From Bacteroidota bacterium (GTDB lineage Bacteria; Bacteroidota; Ignavibacteria; Tepidaquicellales; Tepidaquicellaceae): DNA of 64,000 nucleotides. The position numbers and the translations under genes are program-made. The notes beneath the pieces are model-generated. The model searched no databases. It saw nothing but the letters and a program-made list of their open reading frames with translations, and was not told the DNA's origin. The first letter of the stretch is position 1. Every line of letters begins with the position of its first letter. Positions 28,826-64,000 of the stretch are shown here, in pieces. The DNA lies in assembly GCA_018266895.1 (NCBI GenBank), contig JAFDZQ010000022.1, positions 1 to 64,000 of the forward strand, written 5' to 3'.

Positions 28826-28938
28826 GTTTTAGAGAAAATTGAATTGTATGAAAATATTCTGTGCGAGAATTTAAAAAGTATTTTTCGCACTTTGCGTTTA
28901 AATGTTATTTTAAATTTTGAATAATTTGGGTTAAAATA

Positions 28939-28969
28939 AAAAAGGCATCATAACTTATGACGCCTTTTA
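28939..28969. terminator. Terminator between the S8 protease and HU genes
   Basis: AAAAAGGCATCATAA and TTATGACGCCTTTT form a stem with one mismatch and flanking A/T runs. It lies 25 bases after the HU stop and can act on either strand. Confidence 0.85.
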
Positions 28970-28993
28970 TTTAAACAAAGATTTTCAGAAAAT

Positions 28994-29266
28994 TTATTTT
29001 ACGTGATCTGCAAGACCTTTACCAGCTTTGAACTTGGCAACTTTCTTTGCAGCAATTTTAATTTCTTTGCCTGTCTGAGGGTTTCTTCCTATTCTTGCTT
29101 TTCTTTTGGAAATAGAAAATGTTCCGAAACCAACCAATGAAATCTTTCCGCCTTTTTTAAGAGTTCTTTTAACTGCATCCATTAATGATTCTAATGCAGC
29201 TCTTGCCTGAACTTTTGTGGTCTTGGCATCAGCTGACATTTTGTCAATGAGTTCTTCTTTTGTCAT
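28994..29266 (-). CDS. HU family DNA-binding protein
   Basis: A 90-residue nucleoid protein that binds and bends DNA as a dimer. It has the usual HU layout: an N-terminal helical dimer half (MTKEELIDKMSADAKTTK), GKISLVGFGTFSISKRKAR, and the DNA-binding arm RIGRNPQTGKEIKIAA with the intercalating Pro. It is transcribed alone from a consensus promoter at 29300-29330 and ends at the terminator at 28939. Confidence 0.96.
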   Translation of the reverse strand: MTKEELIDKMSADAKTTKVQARAALESLMDAVKRTLKKGGKISLVGFGTFSISKRKARIGRNPQTGKEIKIAAKKVAKFKAGKGLADHVK

Positions 29267-44112: not shown

Positions 44113-45081
44113 TTGAATTTAAAAAAAATATCAGAACCGATAACAGAAGAATTAAAAGAATTTGAAAATCAGTTTTCAGATGTCCTGAAATCAAAAGTTG
44201 CACTGATTGATCTAATCACAAAGTATATCCTCCGGCAAAAAGGGAAAAAAATCCGACCTATACTTGTACTTTTATCAGCCAAACTCTGCGGAGAGATCAA
44301 CAACAGGACGTATATCGCCGCGAATCTGGTTGAACTTCTTCATACTGCCACTCTGATTCATGATGATGTCGTAGATGATGCCAAGACCAGAAGAGGAATT
44401 GCTTCAATCAATGCCGTCTGGAAAAACAAAGTTTCCGTTCTGATCGGGGATTATCTGCTTTCAAAAGGGCTTCTCATTTCACTGGAAAATAACGAATATG
44501 GCTTTCTTCAGCTTACTTCCGAAGCGGTAAGAAGAATGAGCGAAGGCGAACTATTGCAGATCCAGAAGGCAAGAAATTTTGACGCTACGGAAGAGACTTA
44601 TTTCAGGGTAATATCGGACAAGACTGCTTCATTAATTAAAACCTGCTGTAAGCTCGGCGCTTTAAGCACTGCAGAAGATATGTCCAATGTGGACAAACTC
44701 GGAGTATTCGGTGAAAACATCGGCATTGCATTCCAGATCAGAGATGATATACTCGATTATACAGGAAGGAAAAAATTACTCGGAAAATCAACCGGCAATG
44801 ATCTGAAGGAAAAAAAATTCACTCTGCCTTTGATTGTCGCTCTTCGAAATTCCCCTAAAAAAAGATCAGCTGAAATAATGAAGCTTATCAAAAGCGACAG
44901 GACAAGGAAGTTTGATGAAGTATATGAGTTTGTTATGAATAACGGAGGTGTTGAGTATGCAGCCGGTAAAGTAAGAGAATTTTCGGATAATGCAAAAAAC
45001 TCCCTTAGGGATTTTAAAGAAAACAATGTAAAGGATTCATTGCTTGAGTTTGCGGATTTTGTAAGTAAAAGAGATTACTAA
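44113..45081 (+). CDS. Polyprenyl diphosphate synthase
   Basis: A long-chain trans-isoprenyl diphosphate synthase of the heptaprenyl/octaprenyl group, making quinone side chains. The first Asp-rich motif reads LIHDDVVDDAKTRRG near residue 80 and the second FQIRDDILDYTG near 210. KGKKIRPILVLLSAKLCG is the substrate-binding N-terminal stretch. The start is TTG at 44113; no ATG lies in frame upstream and the N-terminus aligns well. It draws on the IPP made by IspG and IspH in this window. Confidence 0.92.
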   Translation: MNLKKISEPITEELKEFENQFSDVLKSKVALIDLITKYILRQKGKKIRPILVLLSAKLCGEINNRTYIAANLVELLHTATLIHDDVVDDAKTRRGIASINAVWKNKVSVLIGDYLLSKGLLISLENNEYGFLQLTSEAVRRMSEGELLQIQKARNFDATEETYFRVISDKTASLIKTCCKLGALSTAEDMSNVDKLGVFGENIGIAFQIRDDILDYTGRKKLLGKSTGNDLKEKKFTLPLIVALRNSPKKRSAEIMKLIKSDRTRKFDEVYEFVMNNGGVEYAAGKVREFSDNAKNSLRDFKENNVKDSLLEFADFVSKRDY

Positions 45082-45098
45082 AAAAGTTAACTATTAAA

Positions 45099-45138
45099 AA
45101 AAAAGCATGAACTGTTTAATCAACGGTTCATGCTTTTT
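45099..45138. terminator. Bidirectional terminator, polyprenyl synthase and ccmF
   Basis: AAAAAGCATGAAC and GTTCATGCTTTTT (13-bp stem, about 13-nt loop) flanked by A and T runs lie between convergent genes. It would end both the plus-strand run from glgA and the minus-strand gdh-ccm unit. Confidence 0.88.
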
Positions 45139-45154
45139 AAGTAAATCAGTAAAG

Positions 45155-47428
45155 TTATTTGAGTAATTCTTTTCTTCTTCTTAGTATGGAAATAAAAAAT
45201 CCCGTCACAAGTATTACCGTACCTGCCCAAAGAACATTTATAAAGGGCTTTATCGATGCAGTAAGAACAAGTGTTTCGTCTGCTTTCGGTTTCTGAGAAG
45301 TAAGTTTATTGTTCACCACGGCAATTGTTGCAGTAGCTCCGCCTTCAGCTTCTCCCTTAACGGACATTTTTACAAAATAGAAACTGTAAGTATCATTACC
45401 GCTGATATTAGAAGCTAAATATTCCGGGTTTCCGTCTGTATATTTTATTTTTGGTTCAAGCGTTTCGGTAAATTTACTGTCTTTTACTTTTATCTTAGCT
45501 CCGATGACATAATTTCCGCTCTGCATTTCAGATCCTCCCATTTCAACATTACCGAAATCAAAATCACTGAACATAACTGAAACGTCTCCTACTGTCTTCT
45601 CTTCGCCTTTCTTTAATTCAAGCATTTCATTTTCGGAAAAAGCTTCTGGCTCTACGAGTCCCATCGGCGAAAGATACAGATCTTTTGTGGCAAAGTTTGC
45701 TATGTCAGGATTCTTCATTACGCCTTTTGAGTATTCACTGTAATACATTACCGGCTGAAGCAGCATTTCTTTATTGTCCTTTTCAATCTTGACATTGAAA
45801 TGATACTTTGTATCCCGTTTATTATTCGGATCCTCAAAAGGAGTTGCTCCGATGTATGTCAGAGTATATCCGAATGCTTCCTGAGGCTTGTTAAGTTCAA
45901 GAGAAATATTTTCTTCTTCACTGTATTTTGAAGAACCTATGATTCCGAGAAAAACCAGCGCAATTCCAATGTGAGCGATATATGCTCCTATTGATGTTTT
46001 ATTTTTTCTGAAAGCGTTTACGGCAAGTTCGGCATTTACAAAGAAAGTAAACAGTGAAGCAAGGGCAAATAAGGCTATCAGAAAGTCCTGGACGCCGATA
46101 AAAACAAGTCCGAGAGTTACTATTATGGCAAGTGTCAGGGGAAATATCAGACTTTTAAAAAATCTTTTCTCGTCATTCTGTTTCCATTTGAGCAATAAAC
46201 TGATGCCGTTTATAAGTGCTATCATTATTGCTATGGGAAGATTCATTTTATTATAAAACGCCGCGTCTATTGTGCCTTTCTGAAAGATCGGCCATGTAGT
46301 CCCGGCAAGCACCACCAGAGCCGCTGCGCATAATGTTACCGAACCAATAAACAGAGTTGATTCCCGCGAAAGCATTTTATTTGGTTCAGCATTAAGCGCT
46401 TTAAGTTCTTTAAGTCTGTAAATTATGGCTGCAACGGAGATCAGTGTAAATAATGAAATGAAAACAATTAATGCCAGATATACTTCATATCCGGGATCAA
46501 CAAATGAATGAACCGAAGAGTCTCCGAGTATACCGCTTCTTGTGAGGAATGTTGAGTATAATACCAGAAGATAAGCAGCTATGCAAAGAATCAGATTCAT
46601 CTTTTTATATCCGCCCGTTCTTTTCTGAGCTATCATTGTATGAATACAGGCTACAACTACAAGCCATGGAACAAAGGAAGAATTTTCAACCGGATCCCAT
46701 GCCCAGTATCCGCCCCATCCGAGAATTCCGTAAGCCCAGTATCCGCCCATCATTATTCCCAGTCCGAGTATCATTCCGGAAAATAAAAGCCAGGGCAGGG
46801 AAAACTTAATCCAGTCATTATATCTGTTTTTCATAAGCGTGCCGATGGCAAAACAAAATGGAGCTGCAAGAGATGAAAATCCTAAGAACAGCGTCGGGGG
46901 ATGTATCACTATCCAGAAATTCTGAAGGAGGGGATTCAAACCTCTTCCGTCTTCCGGCATAAATCCTGCCTCTACTTCACCGGGAAATTTTTCCCAGATG
47001 TAAAGGAAAGGAGATTTTAAAATAAGTATCAGTCCGAGAAATGAAATTATCAGTGTAAAAATACTCATCACCTGAGGTTCGAGTCTATCTCCTTTTGAAA
47101 CATAATTTAAAAGAAAGATCCCGATGATACCGGTCATTGTAGTCCACAGCATAAAGCTTCCTTCCTGACCGGAATAAAACGTACTCATAAGCAGCGGAAG
47201 CTGCAGCTCGGAATTACTCTGTTCCCAGACATATGCTAACTGATACTGATGAGTCAGTATCGAATACATCAGAAATGCAGCCGTGGAAAGAATACCAATT
47301 GCTGTCAGATGAAAAAACAGTCTTCCGGCTTTAAGAAATTTTTCTTTGCCAAGATGAGTAAGGTAGTAACTTAAACTCGAAAGTAACGCTGTGGTAAAAA
47401 ATGCATAAACAAGAAACTTACCGATCAT
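45155..47428 (-). CDS. ccmF: Cytochrome c maturation heme lyase CcmF
   Basis: CcmF takes heme from holo-CcmE and, with partners, attaches it to apocytochrome c outside the inner membrane. The 757-residue protein has about 14 membrane helices. The WWD heme-handling motif is present as GWGGYWAWDPVENSSFVPW, and GQEGSFMLWTTM and TFLTRSGILGDSSVHSF are family-typical. A periplasmic domain of about 200 residues precedes the last helix. It is the last gene of the ccm operon, 3 bases after ccmE. CcmG and CcmH partners are not in the window. Confidence 0.93.
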   Translation of the reverse strand: MIGKFLVYAFFTTALLSSLSYYLTHLGKEKFLKAGRLFFHLTAIGILSTAAFLMYSILTHQYQLAYVWEQSNSELQLPLLMSTFYSGQEGSFMLWTTMTGIIGIFLLNYVSKGDRLEPQVMSIFTLIISFLGLILILKSPFLYIWEKFPGEVEAGFMPEDGRGLNPLLQNFWIVIHPPTLFLGFSSLAAPFCFAIGTLMKNRYNDWIKFSLPWLLFSGMILGLGIMMGGYWAYGILGWGGYWAWDPVENSSFVPWLVVVACIHTMIAQKRTGGYKKMNLILCIAAYLLVLYSTFLTRSGILGDSSVHSFVDPGYEVYLALIVFISLFTLISVAAIIYRLKELKALNAEPNKMLSRESTLFIGSVTLCAAALVVLAGTTWPIFQKGTIDAAFYNKMNLPIAIMIALINGISLLLKWKQNDEKRFFKSLIFPLTLAIIVTLGLVFIGVQDFLIALFALASLFTFFVNAELAVNAFRKNKTSIGAYIAHIGIALVFLGIIGSSKYSEEENISLELNKPQEAFGYTLTYIGATPFEDPNNKRDTKYHFNVKIEKDNKEMLLQPVMYYSEYSKGVMKNPDIANFATKDLYLSPMGLVEPEAFSENEMLELKKGEEKTVGDVSVMFSDFDFGNVEMGGSEMQSGNYVIGAKIKVKDSKFTETLEPKIKYTDGNPEYLASNISGNDTYSFYFVKMSVKGEAEGGATATIAVVNNKLTSQKPKADETLVLTASIKPFINVLWAGTVILVTGFFISILRRRKELLK

Positions 47429-60370: not shown

Positions 60371-61885
60371 ATGAAAATTAATACAACTCCTTTAAGAAAT
60401 TTATTTCCTTTCTTTATCATATTATACTTTTTAAATACACCCCTGCATTCGGAGACAGTAAAACCTGTCTCTCTTACTTTTGTAACCCATAACGAAGAAA
60501 ATGAAAATTATACAAATTTTAATTATTATATTTTACGAAGAAATATAATCGTTCAGCTTGCTGAATATGTTCAGCTGAAAGGAGTTAAGTGGGATTTTCA
60601 ATCCGACTGGAAATTTTTAGTTGCTGTCAAAAACTTTGACACGGGAAGTGTAATTATTAATACGAACGGAAAAAATTTAATAAAGTGGCTTGTAGAAGAT
60701 AAAGGAATTAGTTGCGATCCTCACGCACACGAAAGTCAGTACAACTATGCTGATGTAGCTTATCTTCATACTCAATTGGGGATTACGCCTGCGAAAATCG
60801 TAGGAGGATTTCTTTATGATACAATAGTTGGAGGCAACAACTGGGAAAATCTTGAAACAGGAATTTACGGAAGAGTTTATACTTCATTTTTCTGGAAACC
60901 GGATATACTCTGGGGCGGAGGAACACAGAACCATCTCGATGATCCGCAAAATTATGGCATATGGAAACCTAAGGACATGGCAAATTTTTATGTTCACGAT
61001 TCTTCAAAACACCTGACTCTGATCGGAAACGGATGTACAAATAAAATTTTTGATACAACTTCGGTTACAACCGCTCTTAACAGGGTTAAATTTTTAGTGG
61101 ATGCAATAAAATATAATTTAATTCCGGATTCAGGATATTACACTTCAACTGTTTTTATGAGTGTGGGACAGTTCGGTACAAGTCAGCTGAATAAGATGAA
61201 ACAGTTCATAGATTCTGTCGGGGTATATGTTTCACAGGGAAGGATTCAATGGAAAAGCATAAAGGATAATTATGATTACTGGAATACAAGTTACGGAAAG
61301 AATCCCTTCCGGCTTCAATGCTCAGATCTTCCAACACAATTCAGTAAATTAGAAATGACGGCGGCTCCTCAGGGATTTTATAAAGAGAGTGTAAACAGAC
61401 TAAATATGAATGATACATTCCGGATCTGTCTTAGAAATATTTCTTCACCTTATAATATTGTAGATTCATCAAAGGCATTAATTGATTCTACTTCTTTAAC
61501 CGGATATTTTGCTTTCAAAAATGCGCCTTCAGGCACTTATTACATTTCACTTAAACACAGAAACAGCATAGAGACATGGAGCAAATCCGGAGGGATAGCT
61601 TTTACGGTTAATTCTCTCATGAATTATGATTTTACTTCCTCATCATCACAGGCTTATGGAAACAATCTCATTCTCAAGGGAATGAAATACTGTACTTACA
61701 GCGGGGACACGGATCAGGACGGAACAATTGACGCTTCAGATATAAGTATTATTGACAACGATGTCATTCGTGCATTATCGGGTTATCTGATTTCAGATCT
61801 TAACGGGGATTTTATTACTGATGCAGATGATATGTCAATTGCAGAGAATAACAGTCTGAACAATATTATTAAAATTATTCCGTGA
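60371..61885 (+). CDS. Secreted protein with C-terminal dockerin-like domain
   Basis: A 504-residue exported protein (signal FFIILYFLNTPLHSE). The first 330 residues resemble no family I can name with confidence. VSLTFVTHNEENENY, ISCDPHAHESQYNYADVAYL and the later VFMSVGQFG give a polysaccharide-deacetylase or barrel-hydrolase impression, with His/Asp candidates in DPHAHE. A beta-sandwich part follows (FRICLRNISSPYN, GTYYISLKHRNSIETW). The last 60 residues contain two EF-hand-like repeats, DTDQDGTIDASDISIIDND and DLNGDFITDADDMSIAENN, a type I dockerin pattern. No T9SS module is present. Confidence 0.75.
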   Translation: MKINTTPLRNLFPFFIILYFLNTPLHSETVKPVSLTFVTHNEENENYTNFNYYILRRNIIVQLAEYVQLKGVKWDFQSDWKFLVAVKNFDTGSVIINTNGKNLIKWLVEDKGISCDPHAHESQYNYADVAYLHTQLGITPAKIVGGFLYDTIVGGNNWENLETGIYGRVYTSFFWKPDILWGGGTQNHLDDPQNYGIWKPKDMANFYVHDSSKHLTLIGNGCTNKIFDTTSVTTALNRVKFLVDAIKYNLIPDSGYYTSTVFMSVGQFGTSQLNKMKQFIDSVGVYVSQGRIQWKSIKDNYDYWNTSYGKNPFRLQCSDLPTQFSKLEMTAAPQGFYKESVNRLNMNDTFRICLRNISSPYNIVDSSKALIDSTSLTGYFAFKNAPSGTYYISLKHRNSIETWSKSGGIAFTVNSLMNYDFTSSSSQAYGNNLILKGMKYCTYSGDTDQDGTIDASDISIIDNDVIRALSGYLISDLNGDFITDADDMSIAENNSLNNIIKIIP

Positions 61886-61911: not shown

Positions 61912-63408
61912 TTATTTTATCTCTCCGAATTTTTTCTTCAGCCATTTTCTGCCGGCGGTATTTGAACCTTCAGTAAGTTTTGTGATCCTGAAAATAAGTG
62001 TATCGTCTTTTCCAAGTCTGTACTTCACAAGAAGATCAAGAGTCCTTAAAAAATTTCTGAATTCTTCCCTGTAATTGCCGCTGACAATTTTGTTTTTGTT
62101 AATAAAGTGTGAAAAGGAATCAGCCGCATAATAAAGCGAGTCATAATCTTCCGTCTCATAATAAATTTTCAGAGCAAGCACTTTCAGGTGGTATTTAAAG
62201 TTTGAAAATTCAGTGTCTGTTCTGCTTATAAACTCAAGTGATTTTCCATATTGTTTTTTATAAAAACACAGCTGAGCATAACTGTAATTTACGGCATCTT
62301 CCCTGTGTTCAGGATTAAGCCTGCCCGAATAATTTTCAATGAAGTTTTCAATTTCATCATAATTTTCCGAAGCAAGACCCGTGTTTAGAATTGCGGTATA
62401 TGTGGTCATTGAGAAGTAACCCGGATACGAGTCGAATAATTTATTCCGGAACATTAGCTTGTAAACCTCAAAACATTCCTTATTAAAATATTCTTTTCCC
62501 AGATCAATTTTCCGGACACAGCAGTTCGTCAGGCATATATAAAGTCCGTATTTTTCAAGAGAGGAAAACACGCTGTCATTTTCCGTCAGAATATTTTTAT
62601 AACTGAAATATTTTTCATCGTTTAAGGGATCCGTAAGAGCTGAATACATTCTGATATACACTGTAATAACTTTACAATCATATGATGACCCTGATTTTAA
62701 CTTTTTTTCAATTTCTTTTAAATTCACTCCCCTTAGTAATTCATAAGCCAGACTTGAAGTATGGTCAATATTGTATTGTTTCTGCCATTCGAAAAAATTG
62801 ATCATTTTAAAAATTCTGATCAGATAATAGTATGTGAGATTATCCGACGCTTTTAAAATATAATTGCTTCTATGAAGACTGAGATTGTCGATGTACTGAC
62901 TGTTTGTGGATTTTGATTCTTCCAGAATGAATTTTTTGTAATAGTCTTCTTCTCCCCTGAATACGTTTTCTGACAGAAGACTTTCTGCAGTCTTCAGTCT
63001 TTTTTCATAAATGCCGGTAAGTTTCCTTTTTCCGAGTTCTTTCAGACTTATTTCACTGAACAGGAATTTATTTTTTTCTATCTCGGTGCATACGAGAAAT
63101 TTTTCCGCAAGTATCATCAGGTCGGACAAAAGATTCCTGACTGATGCATCACTGAATGATGCATACTTATCAGAACCTGAAAATATTAATGTGAATAATT
63201 TTTCTTTTGTAAGATTTTTATGACCGTAATGCGGATGATACTTAGAAAGGATTTCAAACAGCTGAATTACTTTTTTGTTTTTATTGTGAAATGGAGAAGA
63301 AAGAAAACCGGAAAACTTTCTGATTTCTTCCACTGAAAAACTCTTAAGAATATCAATTACTTTTGAATTAAGCATAAATCTGCAGCTTAAAATTTCTACA
63401 AATCTCAT
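61912..63408 (-). CDS. Uncharacterised helical protein
   Basis: A 498-residue protein without signal peptide. The ATG at 63375 (MLNSKVIDILKSFSVEEIRKF) is a likely alternative start 11 codons in. It is rich in helix-forming Leu, Lys and Glu with regular aromatic residues. The N-terminal part includes FSGFLSSPFHNKNKKVIQLF and SVRNLLSDLMILAEKFL, which I associate with unnamed proteins repeated in Ignavibacteria genomes. The remainder looks like TPR- or HEAT-style helical pairs (AVNYSYAQLCFYKKQYGKSL). No catalytic motif was seen. Confidence 0.65.
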   Translation of the reverse strand: MRFVEILSCRFMLNSKVIDILKSFSVEEIRKFSGFLSSPFHNKNKKVIQLFEILSKYHPHYGHKNLTKEKLFTLIFSGSDKYASFSDASVRNLLSDLMILAEKFLVCTEIEKNKFLFSEISLKELGKRKLTGIYEKRLKTAESLLSENVFRGEEDYYKKFILEESKSTNSQYIDNLSLHRSNYILKASDNLTYYYLIRIFKMINFFEWQKQYNIDHTSSLAYELLRGVNLKEIEKKLKSGSSYDCKVITVYIRMYSALTDPLNDEKYFSYKNILTENDSVFSSLEKYGLYICLTNCCVRKIDLGKEYFNKECFEVYKLMFRNKLFDSYPGYFSMTTYTAILNTGLASENYDEIENFIENYSGRLNPEHREDAVNYSYAQLCFYKKQYGKSLEFISRTDTEFSNFKYHLKVLALKIYYETEDYDSLYYAADSFSHFINKNKIVSGNYREEFRNFLRTLDLLVKYRLGKDDTLIFRITKLTEGSNTAGRKWLKKKFGEIK

Positions 63409-63514: not shown

Positions 63515-63546
63515 TTTGAAACAAGAAATACTTAGTTTTAATTTTG
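63515..63546 (+). promoter_or_regulatory. Promoter of the Ycf48-like gene
   Basis: TTTG (63515-63518), 20 bases, TAATTTTG (63539-63546) is a complete match to the Bacteroidota -33/-7 consensus. The predicted start near 63553 leaves a leader of about 137 bases, which contains the structured element at 63572-63658. Confidence 0.72.
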
Positions 63547-63571
63547 AACAATTGTAAATTATAATCATCAA

Positions 63572-63658
63572 TGGCAGTGTAACCTGATGTCAGATATGAG
63601 ATCCGGACTCGTTCTGAAACATCAAAAATACAGAATGCAACTGTAAGTTATACTGCCA
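63572..63658 (+). promoter_or_regulatory. Structured 5' leader, candidate three-way junction RNA
   Basis: Three helices can be drawn. P1 is 12 pairs (TGGCAGTGTAAC at 63572 with GTTATACTGCCA at 63647, one G-U). P2 is TGATGT-CAGA (63585-63594) with TCTG-AA-ACATCA (63613-63624). P3 is TACAG (63629-63633) with CTGTA (63641-63645). Linkers are 1, 4 and 1 bases. The element lies between a consensus promoter and the AAGGAG ribosome binding site at 63675-63680. No known riboswitch class was recognised. Confidence 0.55.
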
Positions 63659-63689
63659 GATAAATTTAATTAAAAAGGAGAATACTCAA

Positions 63690-64000
63690 ATGAAAAATCT
63701 AAAAATAAATTTTAGTTTTATTTTCATCTTCATACTGATTTCAGCGAAATGCAGTATTTCGTTTTCACAGTCCGGCTGGATTTTAAAATCAACAGGAATA
63801 AATATTAATTCCGTATTCTTTATAAGTCCGTCGCAGGGATGGATGGCGGGAGATTCTGGATTAATGTATGCAACTTACGACGGAGGAATGAGCTGGTCAG
63901 GGCTGGAAAGCAAGACCACCGAAAGACTGAATTCGGTTTTCTTCAGAAATGAATCAACCGGCTGGGTTGCAGGTGATAACGGAACCATAATCAAAACAAC
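63690..64000 (+). CDS. Secreted Ycf48-like repeat protein, N-terminal part
   Basis: The gene runs off the right edge; 103 codons are visible. It starts at ATG 63690 with a strong ribosome binding site (AAGGAG, 9 bases upstream). The signal peptide reads FSFIFIFILISAKCSISFSQ. Two repeats follow with the Ycf48/BNR pattern: NSVFFISPSQGWMAGDSG then DGGMSW, and NSVFFRNESTGWVAGDNG then TIIKTT. Such beta-propeller proteins are common T9SS cargo in this group; the sorting domain would lie beyond the window. A promoter and a structured leader precede it. Confidence 0.85.
   Translation, partial: MKNLKINFSFIFIFILISAKCSISFSQSGWILKSTGININSVFFISPSQGWMAGDSGLMYATYDGGMSWSGLESKTTERLNSVFFRNESTGWVAGDNGTIIKT

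Follow-up and report, generated by a model that had tools for sequence, protein, structure and literature searches.

The window analysed here, a 64,000-nucleotide stretch from an uncultured member of the Ignavibacteria (genome G000), ends inside a gene for a secreted repeat protein. Between the promoter of this gene and its start codon lies a segment whose letters can be paired into three helices. Is the segment a genuine structured leader RNA, and, if so, what might it do for the single mRNA that it opens? The parts of the locus, in window coordinates, are:

61912-63408, minus strand: divergent neighbouring gene, 498 aa, of no known family, kept beside the leader in all five genomes that carry it
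63515-63546, plus strand: promoter of the Bacteroidota type (TTTG, 20-nt spacer, TAATTTTG), a pattern common to all five genomes
63572-63658, plus strand: the whole structured leader RNA, an 87-nt three-way junction, from folding, covariation and covariance-model searches
63572-63583, plus strand: 5' arm of helix P1, partner of 63647-63658, from folding; six P1 pairs are changed on both sides in the alignment
63585-63624, plus strand: helix P2, with a basal helix, a 2-nt internal bulge on the 3' side, a middle helix, a single bulged U and a 5-bp distal helix containing a U-G wobble
63601-63607, plus strand: P2 loop AUCCGGA, whose core UCCGGA is identical in five of five genomes
63629-63645, plus strand: helix P3, 5 bp from folding, with the 7-nt loop AAUGCAA (63634-63640; consensus NNYGYAR)
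63647-63658, plus strand: 3' arm of P1, from folding
63659-63689, plus strand: A/U-rich linker with the ribosome binding site AAGGAG (63675-63680); 21-34 nt long across the five genomes
63690-64000, plus strand: start of the 811-aa gene (ending at G000:C51:66125), with signal peptide, YCF48-like BNR propeller and type IX secretion sorting tail

The leader folds as a compact three-way junction

Free-energy folding of positions 63572-63658 yields a three-way junction with a minimum free energy of -32.4 kcal/mol (z -6.2), a value that none of 200 shuffles of the 87-nt segment matched. P1 closes the structure with 12 bp, one of them G-U, and linkers of only 1, 4 and 1 nt join the helices, exactly the architecture that the original prediction had drawn. 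The junction is retained in the longer predicted transcript (z -5.3). Ranked by GC-corrected energy within the 64-kb window, over which all ranking statistics were computed, the segment stands third among 15,981 87-nt windows on both strands. Long simple hairpins make up most of the other extreme windows; the leader RNA stands among these windows as a branched, multi-helix fold in a 5' leader. Two very stable long hairpins elsewhere in the window (45049-45175 and 28890-28999) have z-scores about as extreme as the leader's and resemble simple long inverted repeats.

The antisense strand folds with nearly equal energy, slightly better in two of the relatives introduced below (G001 and G013), so the strand is not fixed by folding energy alone.

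The fold is preserved by compensatory change

The gene downstream of the leader extends beyond the window and encodes an 811-aa product that carries BNR repeats of the YCF48-like kind and has a sorting tail for type IX secretion. A protein search of 29 family genomes returned full-length orthologues of 57-64% identity in G001 (same genus), G010, G013 and G022, and none of comparable score beyond these and the window's own genome. In all four relatives, an element of 87-94 nt occupies the place between promoter and start codon. The G001 homologue was found by its DNA similarity to G000, and those of G010, G013 and G022 were located by looking upstream of the orthologous genes, not by structure. 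Apart from G001 and a weak match in G022 (95242-95290) that proved to be the real homologue, DNA similarity returned only A/G-rich ribosome-binding regions or chance matches.

Single-sequence folding produces the same three-way junction in four of the five (G000, G001, G010 and G022); the lowest-energy fold of G013 alone keeps P1 and P3 and rearranges P2. RNAalifold, applied to a structure-blind MAFFT alignment, also arrived at P1, P2 and P3, and both partners have changed in 14 of 29 pairs. None of 500 shuffles attained the observed pairing percentage, double-change counts or covariation score, and sliding the pairing partners gave at most five double-change pairs. To avoid circularity, we also took the structure from the window sequence alone and scored it in the other four sequences. 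There, 104 of 127 cells pair, where a tree-based null gives 78 ± 5, and compensatory cells number 21, where 7.6 ± 3.1 are expected; neither the pairing count nor the compensatory count was attained in any of 5,000 tree-based simulations. The covariation rests on five sequences in all, and compensatory changes occur in all three helices. The inner part of P1, for instance, reads GUGUAAC/GUUAUAC in G000, GCGUAAC/GUUACGC in G010 and GCGCAGC/GCUGCGC in G013, and P3 changes from UACAG/CUGUA in G000 to UGCAG/CUGCA in G010. In line with this pattern, covariance model R2, which contains only G000, G001 and G010, recovers the two remaining homologues (G022 at E 8.8e-9, G013 at 6.7e-8).

These changes also bear on whether the element acts as DNA, namely as an operator, a cruciform or a mobile inverted repeat, a reading that draws on the near-equal folding of the antisense strand. 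The arm sequences change while their complementarity is kept, unlike in a sequence-specific operator. Each genome holds one copy with no repeats elsewhere, which speaks against a mobile element; the P2 U-G wobble, a valid pair on the sense RNA only, is retained in four of five genomes; and the site lies between promoter and ribosome binding site. We therefore regard a DNA-level element as very unlikely. Because matching mutations on both sides of the stems keep the same three-armed fold, we conclude that the segment is a real leader RNA.

Promoter, leader and start codon keep a constant geometry

The pattern TTTG-N20-TAATTTTG ends 25 nt upstream of P1, where a promoter had been proposed, and AAGGAG begins 16 nt downstream of P1, again as anticipated, followed by the ATG at 63690. 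Promoters of the kind TTTG-spacer-TAnnTTTG are used in Bacteroidota, and all five genomes carry TTTG-N20/21-TAnnTTTG 13-25 nt upstream of the leader RNA. Conserved throughout the five are the promoter spacing, the promoter-P1 gap (13-25 nt), the linker from P1 to the start codon (21-34 nt) and the position itself, after the promoter and before the start codon of one gene. The promoter spacer belongs to the least conserved segments, and in nearly every genome pair the leader RNA is more similar than the spacer and the 5' single strand. The G022 linker has a small hairpin of its own (ATCCG-GATTT-CGGAT) just 5' of GGAGG.

The divergent 498-aa gene accompanies the leader gene in all four orthologue-bearing genomes. 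It belongs to a large paralogous family that matches nothing in Pfam or NCBIfam and whose copy number is about 20-47 per genome in many family members and low in others; in four genomes none was found. Two secreted-type proteins near the leader gene, at 60371-61885 and L003:6339-9338, have related C-terminal parts, of a type met again in the neighbouring regions of the relatives' genomes. On the 3' side of the leader gene, genes for HIUase and OHCU decarboxylase (urate degradation) lie in convergent orientation at G000:C51:69473-70314 on the minus strand, and likewise in G001 and G022. Urate degradation genes were not found beside the leader gene in G010 and G013, two of the five genomes, and for this reason we dropped a link between the leader and urate catabolism.

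One gene in one clade carries the leader

Covariance model R1 places the leader RNA as a single copy in each of the five genomes and gave no other significant match in 29 family, 44 order and 294 sampled class genomes, although very diverged copies could be missed since its first-look filter scores only some candidates per genome. The window's own genome holds no further copy. A scan of 84,980 GTDB genomes for the loop-plus-P3 pattern produced 31 matches, of which the covariance model scores only the four known homologues, and a search of viral contigs gave no match. Such a leader is absent upstream of the distant protein homologues in G157 and G178 (35-37% identity, different gene context) and upstream of weaker paralogues within the family. 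The original prediction had made its case depend on homologues upstream of other genes: homologues do exist, but solely before orthologues of the same gene and never before a different one.

Rfam returned only chance-level matches, all far below the gathering threshold. Our literature search found no paper that treats Ignavibacteria together with structured RNA and covariation; the papers mentioning riboswitches together with Ignavibacteria have, by their titles and abstracts, a subject other than such RNAs. The leader RNA is an uncatalogued addition to a known kind, the structured leader RNAs, and fits no named family in the features that were tested. Its distribution is narrow, comprising one gene in a single clade within an Ignavibacteria family. 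Compensatory changes in three helices, four homologues, the conserved order of promoter, RNA and start codon and the absence from Rfam together uphold the structured leader RNA first proposed from the letters, and we put the probability that a conserved leader RNA exists in these five related uncultured Ignavibacteria at roughly 95%.

The leader shows no visible mark of a ligand-driven switch

How could such an RNA act? A simple consensus scan detected no terminator after the element. In fold predictions under energy models, preventing P1 neither hid nor freed the Shine-Dalgarno region consistently. An expression platform, either a terminator or a sequestration of the Shine-Dalgarno sequence that excludes the aptamer, was accordingly not found. 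Nor does conservation of the short open reading frames in the leader extend beyond G000 and G001.

The last of these results bears on translation of a leader peptide, with attenuation or translational coupling as the function and the fold as a by-product. A 16-codon frame, MRSGLVLKHQKY..QL (MRSGLVLKHQKYRMQL; 63596-63646), does lie inside the element and differs little between G000 and G001. It has no Shine-Dalgarno sequence, however, and its counterparts disagree: G010 has a different frame of nine codons, G022 only a TTG with a long open frame, and G013 none. We rejected a leader-peptide attenuator, as no conserved short frame with start codon and ribosome binding site runs through the five genomes, and consider translation of the element as its function hardly credible.

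A metabolite-binding riboswitch of a new class, in which the junction would bind a small molecule and alter gene expression, has more in its favour: a compact junction, conserved terminal loops, a position in the 5' untranslated region and covariation in every helix. The urate/allantoin degradation cluster near the gene in G000, G001 and G022 would even hint weakly at a ligand related to purines. Yet the cluster is convergent and is missing from this place in G010 and G013, the 1/4/1 linkers leave little room for a pocket, and the single target is a secreted repeat protein rather than an enzyme or transporter. With no terminator, no Shine-Dalgarno switch coupled to P1 and unconserved reading frames, a classical riboswitch is not supported, and we think a new one unlikely. 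Ligand sensing, one of the functions first suggested for the element, likewise finds no support, as no expression platform was found.

The self-complementary UCCGGA, identical in all five genomes and placed in a terminal loop, could instead be the seed, or a kissing or dimer site, of a small RNA that acts in trans, either processed from the mRNA or made separately. Against this stand the lack of a terminator past P1, the absence of other copies and of any identified target, and a short, fixed spacing to the start codon in five of five genomes, which fits a role in cis; a trans-acting RNA therefore appears doubtful to us.

The same evidence favours a module that does not switch. Blocking P1 has no consistent effect on the Shine-Dalgarno region and no terminator follows, and the constant 5' gap and linker, together with the lack of a visible expression platform, point to a constitutive 5' module. 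Transcription would begin a few bases downstream of the promoter, so that the mRNA would open with 9-21 unpaired bases and pass directly into the three-way junction. The junction would present two conserved loops, UCCGGA and NNYGYAR, most likely for protein binding. It may cap the 5' end, shielding the mRNA from 5'-end-dependent decay, and may keep the A/U-rich ribosome binding site accessible in an open state. On this model no ligand would drive a switch, and the module would constitutively set the stability or the translation of a single mRNA. Our confidence in this model, in which the constitutive module is probably bound by a protein and protects the mRNA or holds its start site open, is moderate. 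Far more tentative is the idea of a new, lineage-restricted class of leader RNA that senses a small molecule or a protein and regulates cargo of the secretion system through its mRNA; the UCCGGA loop would then join RNA molecules into dimers or make a specific contact with a protein.

The leader RNA adds a well-supported and uncatalogued structured RNA to a phylum in which RNA regulation has hardly been studied, and it is a compact object for structure probing. What it guards is also unusual: one gene for type IX secretion cargo and not a metabolic gene. Its effect on general knowledge will be modest unless a ligand or protein partner emerges.

Comparison with known systems

Purine-type riboswitches combine a three-way junction, a P1 closing helix and two arms with 7-nt loops around a long conserved junction core. 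The leader RNA shares the junction, the closing helix and the two arms with 7-nt loops; in place of the core it has linkers of 1, 4 and 1 nt, and it has no expression platform. Membership in this class was rejected on those short linkers and on the absence of an Rfam match even at E 10.

The ompA and aprE leaders are 5' stem-loops that stabilise their mRNAs. Like them, the leader RNA folds stably close to the 5' end and is followed by an exposed ribosome binding site; they are plain hairpins, whereas it is a three-way junction with conserved loops. Protection of the ompA type is most effective where hardly any 5' bases are unpaired, and the 9-21 predicted here are a point against the stabiliser mechanism.

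Within the same wider phylum, the Flavo-1 RNA motif of Flavobacteriaceae is also structured, and it is widespread and occurs in both orientations (PMC9723704, PMC2864571); the leader RNA, in contrast, is single-copy and leader-specific, and has no match in Rfam. Comparative genomics has produced 104 candidate structured motifs (Weinberg et al., 2010; PMC2864571), and 64 structured 5' regions are described in Flavobacterium psychrophilum (PMC9723704). The leader RNA differs from the orphan 5' leader motifs of these collections in its absence from Rfam and in its restriction to one secreted protein gene in five genomes of one family, and it is, like them, an orphan with a covarying 5' untranslated fold in a Bacteroidota-type promoter setting.
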